From Deltaproteobacteria bacterium HGW-Deltaproteobacteria-19 (GTDB taxonomy: Bacteria > Desulfobacterota > Syntrophia > Syntrophales > PHBD01), in assembly GCA_002841865.1 (NCBI GenBank), contig PHBD01000014.1, positions 1 through 64,000 on the forward strand: DNA of 64,000 nucleotides, in the 5' to 3' direction. Position 1 is the stretch's first letter. Every line of letters starts with the position of its first letter. Made by a program: the position numbers and the translations under genes. The notes under the pieces are model-generated. The model ran no database searches, was not told where the DNA came from, and worked only from the letters and a program-made list of their open reading frames with translations. Below, in pieces: positions 6,042 to 15,958 of this stretch.

Positions 6042-6239
6042 GTGGGAGAAAAACTGGTGTGCATCTATGAACTCGTAACAGAAAAAATCGGGTTGAAGGG
6101 AAGGCTCGAACTTGCCGTGAAAACTGGAATCTCCATGAGTCAGGCTGTCGAGGTGGATGATTCGGATGAGCTCATTCAGAAGTTCAAACATGCGGCAAAC
6201 GCTATCTATGACGCGTATTACGGCAAGACAACTTCGTAA
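6042..6239 (+). CDS. Small (~65 aa) conserved protein A, paralog of 7617..7817
   Basis: GTG start preceded by GGAGGAGG; MGEKLVCIYELVTEKIGLKGRLELAVKTGIS aligns from residue 1 with the second small protein. Confidence 0.75.
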   Translation: MGEKLVCIYELVTEKIGLKGRLELAVKTGISMSQAVEVDDSDELIQKFKHAANAIYDAYYGKTTS

Positions 6240-6254
6240 TTGTTTCGGCAGGAG

Positions 6255-7106
6255 ATGAAGCCCGTGGAAGGTTCCCTCAAGAGAGATCTCAAGCTGATTG
6301 TAGACAATGACGGCTTTTCAGAGATCCAGCCACATGCGGAAAAACCGGGTTCGAAAGAGGAATTGAATCGCTGGCCGATCTGCGGCCTTCCGGTGGGGAG
6401 TTTTCTGCAGGTAATCGCAATGGACCAGCAGACATGTATTCTGGAGGTCTATCAGAGTGCCGATCGCCAGGGCCGTTTCTGCTTTGTTCAGGGGGCCCTT
6501 TATGATGCCGTCTGTAACGGCCTGGAAGGAGAAGAGGCGGCACTGGAGATGGTTTCCTGGGAAAACGTCAGGCTTAATATCAAGCAGATTATCAAGGCCA
6601 GTGGCTTCGTCAGGAAGATCGACAAGAGTCTCATGTCGATTCTGATGGAATATTCAAGGCGCCGGGACGAGGCGGAAGAAAAGCAAAGCAGCGGGGAAGA
6701 AGAGGAAGCGAATGCGGAGGACCATGACAGGGATGGAGACAAGTTTAAACGGTGCCTCCGCATCGTTCGGGAGGATATGGGGGATGCACTCATCTCGGCA
6801 AGCATTTCCGACCTTCGCAACGGGAAGGTGCTGGCTTCGCATCATGATCGCAAAACACTGGAAACCGCTCAACTGTTCATAAAGCTGACGGGTTCCCTCC
6901 GAAAGGCTTTCGAAAAAGATTCCGAACAAAAGCGACTCGGCGGCCACTACATTCTGGACCTCAAGGAAGAGCAGACGCTCATGATCCTTCGTTTTGATGA
7001 GCATCAACTGGGTATCCTGTTCAACAACGTGAGGTGCTCATTGGGTCTTGTCCTGAATGCCATCGTCCCCAAGGTTGCCAGGACGTTTGACGACACCGGT
7101 TGTTGA
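6255..7106 (+). CDS. DUF4388 (PATAN)-like + Roadblock/LC7-like domain protein
   Basis: GSFLQVIAMDQQTCILEV…GRFCFVQGALYDAVCNGLEGEEAALEMVSWENVRL (DUF4388-like); C-terminus resembles the next Roadblock protein (CLRIVREDMGDALISASISDLRNGKVLAS…). Confidence 0.7.
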   Translation: MKPVEGSLKRDLKLIVDNDGFSEIQPHAEKPGSKEELNRWPICGLPVGSFLQVIAMDQQTCILEVYQSADRQGRFCFVQGALYDAVCNGLEGEEAALEMVSWENVRLNIKQIIKASGFVRKIDKSLMSILMEYSRRRDEAEEKQSSGEEEEANAEDHDRDGDKFKRCLRIVREDMGDALISASISDLRNGKVLASHHDRKTLETAQLFIKLTGSLRKAFEKDSEQKRLGGHYILDLKEEQTLMILRFDEHQLGILFNNVRCSLGLVLNAIVPKVARTFDDTGC

Positions 7107-7224
7107 GCAATCCCGGATCCGGATGAAGGATGCATGAAGGGGAGGTGGCGGCTGATTCTTGGGGAGACGGGTGTTGGGAGATTGTTAAGCAAAAAAATAC
7201 CAATATTTTTTAAGAGGAGGCGTG

Positions 7225-7596
7225 ATGAACATACAGAAATTGAACGGCTGTCTGGAGGGGTTGAGGAAGGATCTGGGGGATGGTCTCCTGGCATCGAGCA
7301 TCGTATCTACGGACGACGGACAGGTACTGGTAGCGACAGACAGATCCAATACGGCCGGAGCTACCCTGCTGAATGAAATTACGGCGTCCATTCGTGAAGG
7401 CCTGAAGACATACCCCGTGGAACTGGGCCAGTATTATTACATCGACGTTGCCGGGAATATGGGCATCCTGGCCATTCCTTTCGGTGACTACCAGTGGGCG
7501 ATCGTTGTCAACAAAAAGCAGGTCAAGCTGGGGCTGCTTTTGAATGTTGTTCTGCCCAACATCATCAATGCATTCGAAGATGCGGTCGTATCTTAG
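7225..7596 (+). CDS. Roadblock/LC7-like protein
   Basis: LNGCLEGLRKDLGDGLLASSIVSTDDGQVLVATDRS…GQYYYIDVAGNMGILAIPFGDYQWAIVVNKKQVKLGLLLNVV; SD gaggagg. Confidence 0.7.
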   Translation: MNIQKLNGCLEGLRKDLGDGLLASSIVSTDDGQVLVATDRSNTAGATLLNEITASIREGLKTYPVELGQYYYIDVAGNMGILAIPFGDYQWAIVVNKKQVKLGLLLNVVLPNIINAFEDAVVS

Positions 7597-7616
7597 AAAA
7601 GTGGAGGGGAGGGACG

Positions 7617-7817
7617 ATGGGAGAAAAAATGGTCCGGATTTTTGAGATCGTCATGGAGCAGGCAGGTCTCAAAGGGCGAATGGAACTGGCGACCAGGACG
7701 GGAATTTCCCAGACCATGGCGTCTCAGATGAAGGATACCGAGGAGTTGGTGAAAAAATTAAAGGAAAACGCCAATTTGATCCTCGATCGGAGCAATCTGA
7801 ATACAATCGGCCATTGA
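7617..7817 (+). CDS. Small (~66 aa) conserved protein B, paralog of 6042..6239
   Basis: MGEKMVRIFEIVMEQAGLKGRMELATRTGIS; SD gagggga. Confidence 0.75.
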   Translation: MGEKMVRIFEIVMEQAGLKGRMELATRTGISQTMASQMKDTEELVKKLKENANLILDRSNLNTIGH

Positions 7818-8051
7818 GGCGCGCCTTTCCGCGGCAGGTCAGCGTTAAGGAAACGCCCGGCACGGATTGCCGCAACAAAGGGCCTCAGCGCATTGCCCTG
7901 GAATCGGGCGGAGGCGGACGGCCCTGCCGTAATGAAGAAACGGATAACGCCCGGCCGGTTATGCACTGCCGGTCACGGAGCCGACGGGAGATGAAATGAA
8001 TATCGAGCGTCCCATTCATGCAGGGCTCTGCCGATCAAGAGAGATATCGCT

Positions 8052-8441
8052 GTGAGTCTGATCCTGGGCCGGCAACATCTTGATAAGATCCAGGACACCT
8101 TGCAGAAGAACCTGATCGGGTTGGGTGTCCAGAATACCATGCTGATCGATATGGCCGGCAATGTCATTGTTACGGTCGATAACGGAGTGAAGAAGCGCGA
8201 CATGTATTCATTGGCCGCGCTCGCGGCGGCCAATTTCGGGGCCATGTGCAGCATGGCCAAAATCGTAGGGGAGGATGAATTCTCCCTCCTTTTTCACAAG
8301 GGACAGAAAGAAAACATCTACTTCAGCAGAGTGAATGACGAATTCCTCCTGATCAACATCTTTAACAACGATGTGACCCTGGGATTTCTCAGACTGAAGA
8401 TGGCCCAGGTCATCGAAGAATTGTCCAGTGTATTGGATTAA
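8052..8441 (+). CDS. Roadblock/LC7 domain protein (MglB-like)
   Basis: GVQNTMLIDMAGNVIVTVDNG…DMYSLAALAAANFGAMCSMAKIVGEDEFSLLFHKGQKENIYFSRVNDEFLLINIF; GTG start; directly upstream of MglA. Confidence 0.8.
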   Translation: MSLILGRQHLDKIQDTLQKNLIGLGVQNTMLIDMAGNVIVTVDNGVKKRDMYSLAALAAANFGAMCSMAKIVGEDEFSLLFHKGQKENIYFSRVNDEFLLINIFNNDVTLGFLRLKMAQVIEELSSVLD

Positions 8442-8516
8442 GGAAAATCTTCATTCCGCCGGCATCAGGCTGAATGGGCAAAGCGTGTAAGGCATTCAGG
8501 CAAGGAGGAAACGGAT

Positions 8517-9134
8517 TTGGCATTCATCAACCTGAAGGATCGAGTCATTCAAGCAAAGATTGTCTACTACGGCCCCGGAAGATGCGGAAAAACGACAAAC
8601 CTGGAATTCATCTACAGCAAGTGCCGCGAACAAATTAATTCCGAAATGGTGACAGTCAAGACACAGGGTGACCGCACTCTCTTCTTTGATTTCTTTCCTT
8701 TCGATATCGGGAAGATTGCCGGATATGACGTCAAAATTCAATTGTACACCGTGCCGGGCCAGGTGAAATACAACTCGACGAGACGACTCGTATTGAAAGG
8801 TGTGGACGGCGTCGTGTTCGTGGCGGATTCCGAGGCGGAGCGGCGAAGCAAAAACATATCCTCCCTGATGAATCTCCAGGAGAACCTTGCTCTTTACAAC
8901 AAGAATATCTTCGAGATGCCATTGGTCATTCAGTACAATAAACGGGATCTTAAAAAGCAGGGGATCGAGGTGCTGGATGTCGAGACGATGGAGAGGGACC
9001 TCAACGTCGAACTGAAAGCGCCGTCATTCGAGGCCAGTGCGCTGGACGGAGACAACGTTGTCGCGACCCTGAAGAGAATCATATCGCTGACCATGTCCTC
9101 CCTGGAAAAGGAACTGGAGAACGGGGATTGGTAA
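8517..9134 (+). CDS. mglA: MglA-like small Ras-family GTPase
   Basis: KIVYYGPGRCGKTTNLEFIY P-loop, LYTVPGQVKYNSTRRLVLKGVDGVVFVADS, IQYNKRDL; TTG start with AAGGAGG SD. Confidence 0.9.
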   Translation: MAFINLKDRVIQAKIVYYGPGRCGKTTNLEFIYSKCREQINSEMVTVKTQGDRTLFFDFFPFDIGKIAGYDVKIQLYTVPGQVKYNSTRRLVLKGVDGVVFVADSEAERRSKNISSLMNLQENLALYNKNIFEMPLVIQYNKRDLKKQGIEVLDVETMERDLNVELKAPSFEASALDGDNVVATLKRIISLTMSSLEKELENGDW

Positions 9135-10195
9135 TGAAAGAATCGTCATTCGTTCGGGAAGTGGAAAATCGCCTCGATGTCCTGTTCGGGATCGGTCTGG
9201 ATCCTGCGGATCGCAGCAGGAATGCCGGACCGGATCAAGTGAATGCCAGGGACATTCTCGAAGATATTGCCGTAGAATCCGGGGAAGAGGCCGGGCAGGA
9301 ACGAAGCGCCGCATCGCTATTGAACATGGACGATCATTCAGAAGGCAATGATGAGTCCGCATCAGCAGGCCGGGACGGACGCTGTCATATCCTTCTTGAG
9401 GAAGCCGGGAAAGAAACGGAGACGGATTCCTTCGTTGCTGATCATCCCAGCCTGGATGAGATCGCATCCGTTGCCGAGTCGCCCGAGGCGGTCAGGGATG
9501 GAGATGAGCGCTTTGAGCGGATTTTCGGTGATATATCGTCATTCACGCCGGCATTGTTTTCTCCGGTCAAGAATCTGAAAAGCATTATCCTGTCCCTCGA
9601 ATGGGAAATCAGCGATGCCATATTGAACAGGCTGGATGCGGAACTGAGCGGTTTGCAGGAGCTGTATCGCAACGAGCGGACCATTCTTGGTTTCTTGAGG
9701 ATTCTCCGGTTCCTGGAACGTTATATCCGGGTGAAACAGGGAGATTCACATACAGAGTCCATAAAATTGCTTTTTTCCATCTACGATGACCTTGAACGGA
9801 TCATCCTCTCGATAACCATGGCGGAGGAAATAAAACGGGCCATCCTGATGGTTGATATCGGGAAATACAGGAATTGGGTGGAGAATATCGACCTCTCCGC
9901 CTGTCCGGGGGCGGACATCGAGGAGAACGGCGCGTCTTCGGTTGCGGAACCCCGGAGCCCCGTGCCCGAGGCGTTGCCGTCCGCTGATGTCGAAGAGGGG
10001 CGATCCGCTGACGGATTCGAAAATGCCGGGCCGGATGTTTTTGCATCCATGAAAACCATGGAGCCGCACGAGGCATTCGCCTGCGCGCTGGAAGAGATCA
10101 GGAAGATGATCCACAGCGAGTTCGAGGCGCTGAGAGCGGAGATGCGAATGCATCAGTCGGGGAAGACGCAGCCGCCGGCAGGAGCGGACGGATGA
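9134..10195 (+). CDS. Uncharacterised protein, translationally coupled to mglA
   Basis: Start ATG overlaps the MglA stop (TAATG); acidic N-terminus, helical centre (SFTPALFSPVKNLKSIILSLEWEISDAIL…). Confidence 0.7.
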   Translation: MKESSFVREVENRLDVLFGIGLDPADRSRNAGPDQVNARDILEDIAVESGEEAGQERSAASLLNMDDHSEGNDESASAGRDGRCHILLEEAGKETETDSFVADHPSLDEIASVAESPEAVRDGDERFERIFGDISSFTPALFSPVKNLKSIILSLEWEISDAILNRLDAELSGLQELYRNERTILGFLRILRFLERYIRVKQGDSHTESIKLLFSIYDDLERIILSITMAEEIKRAILMVDIGKYRNWVENIDLSACPGADIEENGASSVAEPRSPVPEALPSADVEEGRSADGFENAGPDVFASMKTMEPHEAFACALEEIRKMIHSEFEALRAEMRMHQSGKTQPPAGADG

Positions 10196-10275
10196 CGGGG
10201 GAAACCGTATACAGGAAGGGAAGTGCCTGTTGCGCTGGTTGCTTTCAAACGGATTGCCGATGAGGACTGCCGGAA

Positions 10276-10434
10276 ATGATCGTTTTCTGTGAAGAATGCG
10301 GTGAAAGAATCATTATTGAACCCGAGGAGATCAAGGAATCTGTCATCATCATGGTCTGCACGGCCTGCAGTGACGTCATCAGGATAACGGTTCCGGATAC
10401 GGCAGGGCAGGGGCCGCGGGTTCAGAAAGCCTGA
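10276..10434 (+). CDS. 52-aa zinc-ribbon protein (absent from the supplied ORF track)
   Basis: MIVFCEECGERIIIEPEEIKESVIIMVCTACSDVIRITVPDTAGQGPRVQKA*, two CxxC pairs. Confidence 0.65.
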   Translation: MIVFCEECGERIIIEPEEIKESVIIMVCTACSDVIRITVPDTAGQGPRVQKA

Positions 10435-10518
10435 GAAATGAACCGGGCATCGAATTCATTCCGACACAAACCGGTGTGATGACAGCATGCCGGGATTCCA
10501 TGGAGTCAAAGGGCAGAG

Positions 10519-11754
10519 ATGAACACTCCGAATGAAACGTTCGACTTGATTCGTGAAAAACAGGAGCTGGATGCTTTTTTATCGACATTCGCAACCGTGA
10601 GTCCGTCTCCGCCAATGGAAGAAGAGAGGGAACCCGATCCCGTCCCGTCCGTTGTTCCTTTTTCGTTGACCTATGCGAAAGACGATAAGCCCGCTTCCGC
10701 AATGAAAGATCGTTCCTCCGGCGGGATGCCGGACACGCCGGTTCCGGCACCCTCCTCCCTTTCCCAGGCGGAGGCTGCGAAGGATTCATCTGTGGAAGAG
10801 ACTGCGGCGGCTGCCCCGGAAAGCGAATTGGGCAGAATGCCTTCTCCGGAAAGGGATCCGGGTAAGCAGCCGGAATCCCAGCTCCCGGTACCGGACATGC
10901 CGGCTCCGCCGCCATCTTCTCTTTCACCGGTGGAAACCGTCAGAGATCCATTCCCGGAAAAAGTCGAGGCTGTTGTCGCGGAAGGCGAACAGGAAGGATC
11001 GCCGTCCCCTGAAGCGTTGGAAAACAGCAATGAAATACCAGAGATGGACCGGACCCTGAGGATCGAACGGAGAAAGACAGAAGAAGCGGCCTCCATGAAT
11101 GAGCAATCCCCCGAATCGGTCGAGGACAACGGTGCGAAAAACGGGGAGACGACAAATGTGTCCGCTTTGCCCGGCAGCCGGAAAAAAACCCGGCGGCCAT
11201 TGATCCTTTCAGGCCTTATCCTGTGCCTGGTTCTCGCGCTTTCTGCACTCGGCTATTCCTGGCTCCGGCCTTCCAGCGGGCATGGAGCCGTTCATTGGTT
11301 GTCCATGAATGTTCCTTTTGCCCAGAAATATCTGGAAGTCGGACAGCCGTCTCGGAATCCCGCAGGTGAGCAGGTTGGAATCGTCAACCTGCAGCAGCGA
11401 CTCATCAGAAACGCGGCTCTTGGCCGGGATATCAGGGTCATTGAGGGAACGGCGTTCAACCGGGGACATGAAAACATATCGGGAATCAGGGTCAGGGGGG
11501 AGCTTTACGGCTCCCGGGGTACGCTCCTGGCGGCGCGGATGGCGTACTGCGGAAACATGATGACCGTCGATCAGCTGGAGACCATGGGAGAGGATGAACT
11601 CCGTCTGGCGCTCTCGGTTTCTCAGGCAAACCTCCAGCTGACCAGCGTGGTTCCGCCCGGAGGTCAGACGCCGTTCATGATCGTATTCGTCCACGAGCCG
11701 GCAGGGACCGTCCAGGCAATGGTTGAACCCGTCAGTATGGAAAGGGTCCGCTGA
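10519..11754 (+). CDS. DUF3426-like single-pass membrane protein with disordered N-terminal region
   Basis: TM LILSGLILCLVLALSALGYSWL; C-terminal IRVIEGTAFNRGHENISGIRVRGELYGSRGTLLAARMAYCGNMMT. Confidence 0.7.
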   Translation: MNTPNETFDLIREKQELDAFLSTFATVSPSPPMEEEREPDPVPSVVPFSLTYAKDDKPASAMKDRSSGGMPDTPVPAPSSLSQAEAAKDSSVEETAAAAPESELGRMPSPERDPGKQPESQLPVPDMPAPPPSSLSPVETVRDPFPEKVEAVVAEGEQEGSPSPEALENSNEIPEMDRTLRIERRKTEEAASMNEQSPESVEDNGAKNGETTNVSALPGSRKKTRRPLILSGLILCLVLALSALGYSWLRPSSGHGAVHWLSMNVPFAQKYLEVGQPSRNPAGEQVGIVNLQQRLIRNAALGRDIRVIEGTAFNRGHENISGIRVRGELYGSRGTLLAARMAYCGNMMTVDQLETMGEDELRLALSVSQANLQLTSVVPPGGQTPFMIVFVHEPAGTVQAMVEPVSMERVR

Positions 11755-11919
11755 CCGTGATGTCCGTTGTCATGGACCCTTTTGGCTGCAGATTTCTTAA
11801 GGATCGCGGCTTATTGTCCTGTCGGGTGGAGATGTCGCCGGCTCCGCAAGATATTATGATGAATCCCCCTCCCCCCCTGATCGTTTCTCCCGCAGGCGCC
11901 TCGGTTTCCGGTTCTGATC

Positions 11920-14223
11920 ATGCAAGAGACGATTAAAGATATTAATCATAATGAAATCAACGAACTGGAGGAGATTCTCCGCCTCCAGAACGAACTTCAG
12001 GACATAACCAACGAAATCTATGCCTCCGAGAGCATGGCGCAGATATTCACCGATTGCAGCAAGCGGATCATGAATCTTTTCAATGTCGAAGCGGTGAACA
12101 TCTATGCCGTCGACAAAAAGAGGAGGGAAATCTACACCATCATCGAGGCGAGACACCTGTTCAGAGAGCAGAGAATGGCCGTCAACAACCGGACGATCCC
12201 CGGTTATGTTGCGGATACGGGTGTTATGATCAACGTCGCGGATGTTCACGATCAAAGCGAGATGAAAAGCCGCTGCAAAGGATTGGATCTGGCCGGCGAT
12301 CGGGACGGCAGATCGAATGCTCAACTGAAGCAGGTCATGGCCACGCCCATCGTTCATGAGGGCGAGACCATCGGCATCATCGAGGTGATCAACAAACTTG
12401 GGCGGGACGGCAGATTCGTCGATGAAGAACCCGTTCTGCTGCAGGAAATTTCAGAGGTTCTCGCCATCGCGTTCTCCAATCATGCGCGATATGCGCGCCG
12501 GGGAAAAACGCGCTTCGATTCCCTCATCCGGAAAGGTTTCCTGAAGGAAGAGGAGCTCGACCAGGCCTGGGACGAATCACGGGAACAGAAAGAAACCATG
12601 GAAGGCTTCCTGATGAGAAAATACAATGTCTCGAAGGAAGACCTCGGCAAATCGCTGGAAGAGTTTTATCGGTGCAGATTCTTCCAGTTCAGCGACAGAT
12701 TCCCCATTCCCGCGGAACTCCTGACCAGGCTCAACAAAGAATACCTGCTCCGGGAGTTGTGGGTGCCGATTGAGAAGACAAACGGAAACATTCATATCCT
12801 TCTGAGCGACCCCGACAATATCATCAAGCGGGACATGATTGAAAACCTCCTGAAGACGAAGGCCATCCGGTACGATGTCGCCCTTCCGGAGGACATCTCA
12901 AAATATATCAACTATTTTTATCAGTCTCACGGGGATGAATCGTCGATTTCGGATATCATCGGCAGACTGGACAACACGGACGAGGGGGAAAACGAAGACG
13001 AGGAAGAGCCGGTCACGGAATCGGACAGCGCGATCATGTTGCTCGTCAACAAGATCATCAACGATGCGGTGAGCCGGCGGGCATCCGATATCCACGTTGA
13101 ACCCAATATCACCAAAAGGAACGTGGAGGTCCGCTTCCGCATCGACGGCGACTGCGCCGTTTACCAGACGGTTCCCTTCAGTTACCGTGCCGCCCTCGTG
13201 TCGCGTATCAAGATCATGTCCAACCTGGACATCACGGTCAAAAGGATTCCCCAGGACGGCAAGATCAAGTTTCGCCGGAACGGAAGCGATGAGATCGAGC
13301 TTCGCGTGGCGACGCTGCCGACCCAGGGAGGAGTCGAAGATGTTGTGATGCGCCTTCTCGCCAAAGGGGAAACGCTGCCCCTGGAGGCCATGGGAATGCT
13401 GGACAGGAATTATGCCGAACTCCTCAAGGTCTGTGAAAAACCCTACGGCATGATCCTTGTGGTCGGGCCTACGGGCTCGGGGAAAACGACGACCCTCCAT
13501 GCCGCCCTTCGCCACATCAACACGCCGGAGAAAAAGATCTGGACGGCCGAGGACCCTGTGGAAATCACCCAGTACGGCCTCCGGCAGGTCCAGGTGCAGC
13601 CCAAGATCGGATTCGACTTTGCCACCGCAATGCGGGCCTTTCTTCGCGCCGACCCGGACGTGATCATGGTGGGGGAAATGCGTGACTTCGAGACGGCCAA
13701 AACCGGCGTGGAGGCTTCCCTGACGGGACATCTCGTTTTCAGCACCCTGCATACGAACAGCGCCCCGGAAACCATCATCCGGCTTCTCGACATGGGCATC
13801 GATCCCCTGAACTTCGCCGATGCCCTCCTTGGGGTCCTTGCCCAGAGGCTGGTCCGGACATTGTGCAAGAACTGCAGGGAACCTTATCATCCGACCATGA
13901 AGGAATATGAGGAGATGGCCGGGAGTTATGGAAGGGAACTTTTTGAAAAACTGGCAGTTCCCTATACAAGCGATCTGACCCTGTACCGGCCCAGGGGTTG
14001 CGATCTCTGCGACAGGTCGGGATACAAGGGACGCGTAGGCATCCATGAACTTCTCATCGCCAGCGACAGCGTGAAGCGGCTCATCCAGAAAAACGAAACC
14101 GTCGAAGTGCTGCGTGAGAAGGCCATGTCCGAAGGGATGTCCACGCTCCTCCAGGATGGAATTCAGAAAGCCCTCCGGGGTGTCACGGACTTCCGGCAGG
14201 TCCGGAGGGTCTGCATCAAGTAG
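11920..14223 (+). CDS. GspE/PilB-type secretion ATPase with N-terminal GAF domain
   Basis: GAF-like N-terminus; VVGPTGSGKTTTLHAALRHI, AEDPVEITQYGLRQVQV, LRADPDVIMVGEMRDFETA, tetracysteine LCKNC…GCDLC. Confidence 0.9.
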   Translation: MQETIKDINHNEINELEEILRLQNELQDITNEIYASESMAQIFTDCSKRIMNLFNVEAVNIYAVDKKRREIYTIIEARHLFREQRMAVNNRTIPGYVADTGVMINVADVHDQSEMKSRCKGLDLAGDRDGRSNAQLKQVMATPIVHEGETIGIIEVINKLGRDGRFVDEEPVLLQEISEVLAIAFSNHARYARRGKTRFDSLIRKGFLKEEELDQAWDESREQKETMEGFLMRKYNVSKEDLGKSLEEFYRCRFFQFSDRFPIPAELLTRLNKEYLLRELWVPIEKTNGNIHILLSDPDNIIKRDMIENLLKTKAIRYDVALPEDISKYINYFYQSHGDESSISDIIGRLDNTDEGENEDEEEPVTESDSAIMLLVNKIINDAVSRRASDIHVEPNITKRNVEVRFRIDGDCAVYQTVPFSYRAALVSRIKIMSNLDITVKRIPQDGKIKFRRNGSDEIELRVATLPTQGGVEDVVMRLLAKGETLPLEAMGMLDRNYAELLKVCEKPYGMILVVGPTGSGKTTTLHAALRHINTPEKKIWTAEDPVEITQYGLRQVQVQPKIGFDFATAMRAFLRADPDVIMVGEMRDFETAKTGVEASLTGHLVFSTLHTNSAPETIIRLLDMGIDPLNFADALLGVLAQRLVRTLCKNCREPYHPTMKEYEEMAGSYGRELFEKLAVPYTSDLTLYRPRGCDLCDRSGYKGRVGIHELLIASDSVKRLIQKNETVEVLREKAMSEGMSTLLQDGIQKALRGVTDFRQVRRVCIK

Positions 14224-14341
14224 GAATCCGGCCGCGTTCCCCCGCCAACGGCCGGGCCGTCACTCTCTCCCTTCAAATCAGGCCATTCCATGCCGCGTCC
14301 TGCGGCCTTGATCCTTTTTCCTGCCCGGATTGTGTTTTGCG

Positions 14342-14370
14342 TTGACAATGACACAGGGTTCTTCTAATTG
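14342..14370 (+). promoter_or_regulatory. Weak candidate sigma-70 promoter (TTGACA-N17-TAATTG)
   Basis: TTGACA 14342-14347 upstream of the J-domain gene; -10 match is poor. Confidence 0.3.
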
Positions 14371-14453
14371 CATGGGACACAGGCCCTCCGCGAACGCCGT
14401 CTGAGGAATCCGACTGAATCAACATCCGCGCTGAGGCAAAAAGAGGGACCGCC

Positions 14454-15236
14454 TTGCAGAAGAGTGAAATCCACACCTCCGACCTGTTTGATGCCTGTCA
14501 TGTCCTCTTTGGGAAACAGACCGACGTATCCGTTCAATTCCTGAACAATTACCTAAAACTGTCCGGTTTGAAAGCGGCCTATCGGAAAAGGGCCCGGGAG
14601 ACCCACCCGGACCGTGCCCTGTTGCTCGCCGTCGAATCCGATATTCTCGAGGAGCAGTTCAAGCAGGTCCAGTCCGCCTTCGAGCGGCTTCGCCTCTATC
14701 TGGAGAATCCTTCCCGATTCCGCTTGATTGAAGGAAACCCAGGTCGTGCATCGGCCTCCGCCTCGCGGGAAAACGGCCCGATCAAGAGGAAGGCGGCGTG
14801 GAAGCGTGATCCGTTGCGCGATCATGTCCATACAGGTCCGATTCCCGGGGGCAAGCTTCTCCTGGGCCGCTACCTTTACTATGCGGGCGTGATTTCCCAC
14901 CGGATCCTGGTCGATGCGGTGGTTTGGCAGAAGAGGCAAAGGCCTCCGCTCGGGATGATCGCCTGCCAGTGGGGCTTGCTGGCCCGGGAAGACATTCTCG
15001 TCATACTGAAGCGCTGCATACCCGGGGAGCGTTTCGGCGAATGTGCCGTCCGCCTCGGGTACATGGACGACAAACAGCTGCGCCGCCTGACGGCATGGCA
15101 AAAACTGCTGCAGCCCCGGTTCGGCGATTTCTTTGTTTCAAGGGGGATCCTCACGGCCGGGCAGATTGACCGCCTGGAAAAGGATCATTGGCAGCACAAC
15201 TGGAACTGCAGAAGGAATCCGAGGAAGCGTTCCTGA
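14454..15236 (+). CDS. J-domain protein with C-terminal GspE-N-like repeats
   Basis: AYRKRARETHPDRALL (HPD motif); repeated LGRYLYYAGVISHRIL… / FGECAVRLGYMDDKQL… / FGDFFVSRGILTAGQI…. Confidence 0.65.
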   Translation: MQKSEIHTSDLFDACHVLFGKQTDVSVQFLNNYLKLSGLKAAYRKRARETHPDRALLLAVESDILEEQFKQVQSAFERLRLYLENPSRFRLIEGNPGRASASASRENGPIKRKAAWKRDPLRDHVHTGPIPGGKLLLGRYLYYAGVISHRILVDAVVWQKRQRPPLGMIACQWGLLAREDILVILKRCIPGERFGECAVRLGYMDDKQLRRLTAWQKLLQPRFGDFFVSRGILTAGQIDRLEKDHWQHNWNCRRNPRKRS

Positions 15237-15271
15237 CTCTTGCTGTGATGGGGACCATGAAACAGCCGATC

Positions 15272-15958
15272 ATGACGATTCGCACCGACTCTCTCCTCCG
15301 GGAACTGCCCATTTTCCGGGGCCTTCCCGGGGGGGACGTCGCCGAGTTGCGGATGATGATGGGCGAGCGGAACTTCCGCAGGAATGATGTGATCCTGTTC
15401 GAAGAGGACACGCCGCGCTGCCTCTATGTGATTTATGAAGGCCGGGTGAAGGTTGCGCAGATTGACGAGGAAGGGCGGGAGCAGATCCTGGCCGTCCACA
15501 AGCGCGGCGATTTCTTCGGCGAGATGGCCCTCCTGGACGGAAAGACGTCCCCGGCGAGGGTCGTGGCCCTGGAAGAGACGCGTGTCGGGTTCCTCCGCCG
15601 GGCGGATTTCGAGACACGTTTCCTGAAGAATCCCATTGCCGTGAGGCAGATCATCTCCCTGCTCTGCGAGCGGCTCCGGGATTCCTGGTTCATGCTCAAG
15701 GTCCTGAATCTTCAGCGGGCGGAAGACCGGGTCCGGGCCGTCCTGGGCCACATGGCGACCCGCTTCGGGGCGAGGGATGCGCGGGGCACCGCAATCCGTC
15801 TCCGGATGACCCACAGCGAGCTGGCCGATTATGCATCCCTCTCCCGGGAGACGGTCAGCCGGATCCTCAAGCGTCTGGAGCAGGCCGGGGAGATTTCCGT
15901 TCTCGAAAAAAGAAGAATCCTGATCACACCGAGTTTTCAAAAAGTCGATATTATGTGA
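15272..15958 (+). CDS. Crp/Fnr family transcriptional regulator
   Basis: cNMP-binding fold (FEEDTPRCLYVIYEGRVKV…RGDFFGEMALLDGKTSPARVVALE) + HTH MTHSELADYASLSRETVSRILKRLEQAGEI; alternative starts 15248/15257. Confidence 0.9.
   Translation: MTIRTDSLLRELPIFRGLPGGDVAELRMMMGERNFRRNDVILFEEDTPRCLYVIYEGRVKVAQIDEEGREQILAVHKRGDFFGEMALLDGKTSPARVVALEETRVGFLRRADFETRFLKNPIAVRQIISLLCERLRDSWFMLKVLNLQRAEDRVRAVLGHMATRFGARDARGTAIRLRMTHSELADYASLSRETVSRILKRLEQAGEISVLEKRRILITPSFQKVDIM

Follow-up and report, generated by a model that had tools for sequence, protein, structure and literature searches.

A conserved MglB-MglA gene cluster of Desulfobacterota, with a PilB-like ATPase, as a probable switch for type IV pilus extension

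The 64,000-nucleotide stretch of DNA analysed here (the window) carries a run of genes for an MglA-type GTPase, Roadblock proteins and a PilB-like ATPase, and no pilin, platform or secretin genes adjoin the ATPase gene at this locus. Which machine, if any, does the GTPase control? In Myxococcus xanthus MglA-GTP drives the localisation of PilB via SgmX; binding of MglA to PilB, PilT or PilM was not seen (PMC7519303), and direct MglA-PilB and SgmX-PilB contacts were sought and went undetected (PMC7519303; PMC11580455). Here switch, candidate adaptor and motor are clustered across many families, forming a small testable set. We consider it probable, at roughly three chances in four, that the cluster works as a switch through which a GTPase governs type IV pilus extension. 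If so, it would explain pilus extension in bacteria that lack canonical PilB, and for syntrophic and sulfate-reducing communities it would bear on surface contact.

Gene content of the locus

Open reading frame and domain searches recovered every reading frame of the first-pass annotation between 6042 and 15236 on the plus strand (Table 1). F gave Ras/Arf matches in the domain searches; its best PDB match was to M. xanthus MglA chains (E 1e-55), and the P-loop (GPGRCGKTT), R53, T78 and Q82 are all present. E scored 40.6 bits against Robl_LC7 (PF03259; cut-off 23) and 60 bits against the NCBIfam MglB model, which is below the cut-off of that model.

Table 1. Genes of the cluster and their predicted products (window coordinates).
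Gene	Coordinates	Strand	Product
A	6042-6239	+	65-aa helical protein; paralog of D
B	6240-7106 (start may be 6264)	+	PATAN (DUF4388, PF14332) and C-terminal Roadblock-like domain
C	7225-7596	+	Stand-alone protein with predicted Roadblock fold
D	7617-7817	+	66-aa helical protein; paralog of A; 20 bp past C
E	8052-8441	+	Roadblock protein of MglB type; predicted MglA GAP
F	8517-9134	+	MglA, Group-1-like small GTPase
G	9134-10195	+	Conserved adaptor candidate; 1-bp overlap with F
H	10276-10434	+	52-aa zinc ribbon
I	10519-11754	+	Long N-terminal part bearing the FDLIREKQELDAFLS motif; single TM helix; C-terminal domain resembling DUF3426
J	11920-14223	+	GAF-MshEN-T2SSE ATPase; PilB-like, separate clade
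K	14454-15236	+	J domain near cut-off and MshE-type c-di-GMP motif

The N-terminal domain of B matched DUF4388, which we take to be the PATAN domain, with 37.1 bits (cut-off 25). C had no Pfam matches, and its comparison with the MglB family by hhalign, in which the alignments were shallow, found nothing. The AlphaFold (AF2) model of C (pLDDT 91) is of the Roadblock fold, matching M. xanthus MglB in Foldseek with E 4e-6 and a TM score of about 0.8. About 30% identity to C identifies the C-terminal domain of B as a putative Roadblock domain. The structural match of C to MglB and the B-C identity therefore uphold the earlier proposal that the locus encodes three Roadblock proteins, with E recognised by Pfam, C by predicted structure and B by way of C.

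The small proteins A and D are 49% identical to each other and belong to a family (13 sequences, 15 invariant columns) that was seen only in Syntrophales-type loci; the pairing of C with D recurs in two other loci (L039 and L045). The zinc ribbon of H scored 21.9 bits against PF13717 (MJ0042-type; cut-off 30.3), and its ortholog in L020 reached 42.1 bits and carries a HAMP domain. A zinc-ribbon precedent in Myxococcus is reportedly provided by GltJ. The single TM helix of I lies at 228-246, and the Pfam match to DUF3426 (PF11906) stayed at 23.6 bits, under the cut-off of 27.7.

K, the J-domain protein that had been counted as a member of the module, scored 26.1 bits against DnaJ, slightly below the 27.8 cut-off, and contains two stretches of the MshE-type c-di-GMP motif (43 bits, cut-off 38). 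Conservation of K was confined to 3 of 19 genomes, and it was therefore dropped from the module. A gene for a Crp-family regulator (15248-15958) starts 11 bp after K.

Conservation of the cluster and its pilus neighbours

A genome-wide search for MglA gave 60 loci, nearly all from deltaproteobacterial/Desulfobacterota records and most of them from MAGs, in which neighbouring genes were scored with iterated profiles. MglB lay at most 1.2 kb from mglA in 51 of 54 loci and G in 52 of 55, so that the clustering is not due to chance. MglB-MglA-G is thus conserved across Desulfobacterota, in nearly all loci examined. J was linked in 23 of the 36 MglA loci that either showed J or extended downstream for 9 kb or more. 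The gene-neighbourhood check accordingly bears out the first-pass annotation in that the MglA/MglB/Roadblock module is conserved and genetically tied to a PilB-type ATPase.

The surroundings of the core differ between orders. In Desulfobacterales MglB, MglA and G are followed, in this order, by a winged-helix-like protein, a zinc ribbon-Cache-HAMP protein, a 327-aa protein, a PAS protein, a receiver-PATAN protein, a small protein and J; the counterpart of H is thus fused to Cache-HAMP TM sensor proteins, whereas the zinc ribbon and the TM protein are separate genes in Syntrophales. One locus (L039) presents C-D-B-D-E-F-G-H-I-J as one uninterrupted run, and for most Syntrophales relatives J is placed outside the run, at a distance of about 4-6 kb from mglA. 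In a genome of family f39 a class III cytochrome gene is found inside the module, between the Cache protein and G (L133 10478-10984).

A profile of the G core, searched within the phylum of the window, gave 93 matches among 396 genomes, representing 69 of 247 genera; G was absent from 13 of 15 other genomes of the same order, and one genome (G067) has G and no detected mglA. Sixty further G loci were annotated with a heuristic gene caller and labels taken from similarity scores, for a total of 80 loci from 33 families. A J-type ATPase was linked in 23 of them (13 families), and J immediately followed G in 17 (10 families). PilM was linked in 16 (6 families), and J-type ATPase and PilM were never found together (0/80). 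Four loci of one family contained a pilin-like gene; in the remaining 37, neither J, PilM nor a pilin-like gene was in reach, partly because of contig ends. The pilin-like gene of these four loci (L221, L222, L229 and L234, family f38) is of GspG type and lies directly upstream of MglB-MglA-G.

The cassette stands beside PilM and pilMNOPQ in families f9, f12, f14, f22, f78 and f98; PilS/PilR-like genes intervene in f9, f12, f78 and f98. Four loci (L118, L206, L207 and L212) have a contiguous PATAN-MglB-MglA-G-PilS-PilR-pilMNOPQ arrangement. Since the same set recurs, among many syntrophs and sulfate reducers, beside either J or pilus assembly genes, it looks like a built-in control unit of the pilus rather than a separate machine.

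The PilB-like ATPase and the machine it serves

All three domains of J (GAF, MshEN and T2SSE) exceed their Pfam cut-offs, and the protein retains an intact Walker A, GEMRD and both CxxC pairs. By sequence J is nearest to PilF/PilB structures. It scored 500.6 bits against the PilB equivalog model TIGR02538 (cut-off 675.65) and is therefore termed PilB-like rather than PilB; the score against the GspE model TIGR02533 was 482.5 bits (cut-off 630.25). In a phylogenetic tree the J clade stands apart from canonical PilB with a support of 1.0. The cut-offs and the tree rule out both assignments, canonical PilB and GspE, and no gsp genes were among those called around J. Within the J clade, linked copies from Desulfobacterales and f39 form one subclade and linked Syntrophales copies another, which suggests that linkage to the module may have arisen more than once. 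The sensor domain also differs, being GAF in the window and TPR-like in Desulfobacterales.

The genome to which the window belongs contains four secretins, T2SSF matches from three proteins and eleven T2SSE matches. Its type IV pilus genes are scattered, with pilMNOPQ on C10, pilC on C14 and pilT/U on C9. No canonical PilB was found in this genome, and neither pilMNOPQ nor the lone pilC has a neighbouring pilB. Two of the T2SSF platform proteins are in T2SS loci and the third is the lone PilC. The two T2SS-type loci are separate (C8 and C82), each with its own GspE and GspF. As both GspE genes are accounted for in this way, the candidates left for PilB are J, a second ATPase, J' (on C34), and a short protein on C72, all three of which fall into the J clade. 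J' (L075 9063-16231) is located after glycyl-tRNA synthetase genes and before genes for a CHASE2-like protein, a PP2C phosphatase and an FHA protein, domain types that were assigned by analogy with L126. In L126 itself, from a genome with no detected mglA, PP2C and FHA genes precede G.

Among 23 G-positive genomes, canonical PilB was found above the curated cut-off in 13 and was absent from 10. J-type ATPases, called by length, score and, where fetched, position in the tree, were present in all 10 genomes without canonical PilB and in 2 of the 13 with it (Fisher p 7e-5 by genome and 0.005 by family). This distribution suggests that J acts as an extension motor in place of canonical PilB. In several J genomes the other PilB-like matches lie with gsp or MSH-like genes.

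Since J' and the C72 protein are also members of the J clade, J is not necessarily the main pilus motor. It might instead power some other type IV filament or secretion system, such as a dedicated second pilus or a T2SS-like exporter, which would be polarised by the MglA module, with J' or the C72 protein serving the main pilus. The presence of three J-clade ATPases in one genome, the position of J' next to the CHASE2-PP2C-FHA genes and the two or three J paralogs of many J-bearing genomes are in line with this. We nevertheless regard it as unlikely, because a mere three T2SSF proteins (two T2SS, one lone PilC) are available to such machines, no additional pilin or secretin locus lies next to J, and the cassette adjoins pilMNOPQ in the six other families.

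Two further readings have far less to recommend them. The GAF and MshEN input domains of J, together with the lack of adjoining pilus genes noted at the outset, could speak for a regulatory ATPase or nucleotide sensor in a signalling hub rather than an assembly motor; the intact catalytic motifs and the substitution of J-type proteins for canonical PilB across genomes make this very improbable. Even less credit is due to the idea, put forward in the first-pass annotation, that a polarity or assembly system encoded here is self-contained and stands apart from type IV pili. It drew on the absence of pilus genes from the window locus, an absence that extends to the Desulfobacterales loci examined, and it is largely refuted: the same cassette adjoins PilM or pilMNOPQ in six families, which largely corresponds to the arrangement that the annotation itself had named as evidence against its proposal, and the pilus genes missing from the locus are found elsewhere in the window genome. 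Strong PilM matches also occur in 25 of 27 G-positive genomes, although PilM is common in G-negative genomes as well.

Protein G and the proposed switch

Genes F and G meet in TAATG. In an alignment of ten G proteins a conserved helix at the N-terminus precedes a helical core and a long C-terminal helix, and the AlphaFold model is confident in the core only (about residues 142-253). A motif of the form [ILV][DEN]xLF (LDxLF in the G of the window) is near-universal close to the N-terminus, and long versions of the protein, for example in L130 and L131, have several further copies inward. In several homologs a CheW domain is found at the C-terminus (E 5e-17 in L121, 3e-15 in L122 and 4e-6 in L118). 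G belongs to no Pfam family. For the core, several CheA P1 entries ranked near the top in Foldseek (E 0.7, none significant), and comparison with PDB and Pfam profiles gave no credible family and no profile support for CheA P1, so that the resemblance of the modelled core to CheA P1 is to be taken as a lead only. Near the N-terminus of I, FDLIREKQELDAFLS, duplicated in L008 (5095-6204), loosely resembles the motif of G, and the two proteins may bind the same partner.

If the cluster is indeed a switch for pilus extension, MglA would cycle between GTP and GDP with E as its GAP. The main effector or adaptor would be G, whose reading frame overlaps that of MglA. The motif of its N-terminal helix would dock on a partner within the module, either MglA or a dimer of Roadblock proteins, and its helical core, joined by CheW in other lineages, would connect to the machine or to chemosensory input. 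B and C would form the link between switch and motor, in the manner of the PATAN regulators that act on PilB1 in cyanobacteria. H could serve as a zinc-ribbon contact and I as a membrane anchor, their place being taken elsewhere by zinc ribbons fused to Cache-HAMP sensors. J would be the PilB-type extension motor of the scattered pilus, with a sensor domain of its own, and activated MglA would place or activate it at one pole, thereby setting where and when pili extend. Counting against this reading are the score of J below the PilB cut-off, the two further J-clade ATPases of the genome, the distance of J from mglA in most Syntrophales relatives, the absence of G from 13 of 15 other same-order genomes, the genome with G and no detected mglA, and the failure to see MglA bind PilB, PilT or PilM in M. 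xanthus. A bolder proposal, to which we give somewhat less than even odds, is that G founds an unrecognised family of MglA effectors (LDxLF-type motif, CheA-P1-like core, optional CheW tail) wiring the GTPase to the pilus motor, and also that sensor-fused ATPases of the J type have taken the place of canonical PilB across a large part of Desulfobacterota, syntrophs among them.

MglA control of pili in Myxococcus and PATAN-PilB contact in cyanobacteria are already known. With the MglA/MglB-SgmX-PilB system of M. xanthus the cluster shares a Group-1-type MglA with R53/T78/Q82, an MglB partner and a PilB-type motor as the proposed output; it differs in that switch, PATAN/Roadblock proteins, adaptor candidate and motor are encoded in one locus and in that the motor carries a GAF or TPR-like sensor of its own. 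In Synechocystis PATAN regulators bind PilB1 and PilC (PMC12288463), and in both the cyanobacterial systems (PixG, PixE and others) and the window a PATAN protein accompanies a PilB-type motor. B, in contrast, is a putative PATAN-Roadblock fusion without a receiver domain and is located with MglA/MglB; MglA is not mentioned in the cyanobacterial reviews searched on PATAN regulators. Some Group 1 mglA genes are near PATAN genes, their neighbourhoods otherwise varying widely (PMC4316618). The actinobacterial conservons (CvnA-D) are likewise operons of an MglA/MglB-type GTPase with conserved uncharacterised partners, whereas the window locus has no Cvn-type histidine kinase and its output gene encodes a PilB-like ATPase. 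Finally, the ATPase of the canonical pilB-pilT-pilC-pilS-pilR cluster is also a T2SSE/MshEN protein, serving type IV pili as J is proposed to do; J is longer, forms a separate clade, lies away from pilT/pilC and occurs mostly where canonical PilB is missing.

The cluster is undescribed in the literature searched on mglA with pilM operons, Desulfobacterota pili and cable-bacteria gliding, a search in which few subscription journals were covered, and descriptions of the adaptor family and of the PilB replacement were not found there either. The first-pass annotation was therefore right in calling the partners undescribed as far as G, A/D and H/I are concerned. In early co-culture of Syntrophobacterium fumaroxidans, type IV pilus genes and MglA were jointly upregulated (PMC10787695). 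Another GTPase-ATPase pairing was observed in two loci (L171 7231-11752 and L172 7165-11469), where a second MglA-like GTPase, a histidine kinase and a PilB-like ATPase bearing a receiver domain at its N-terminus follow one another in one run, the domains having been checked by Pfam in L171 only.
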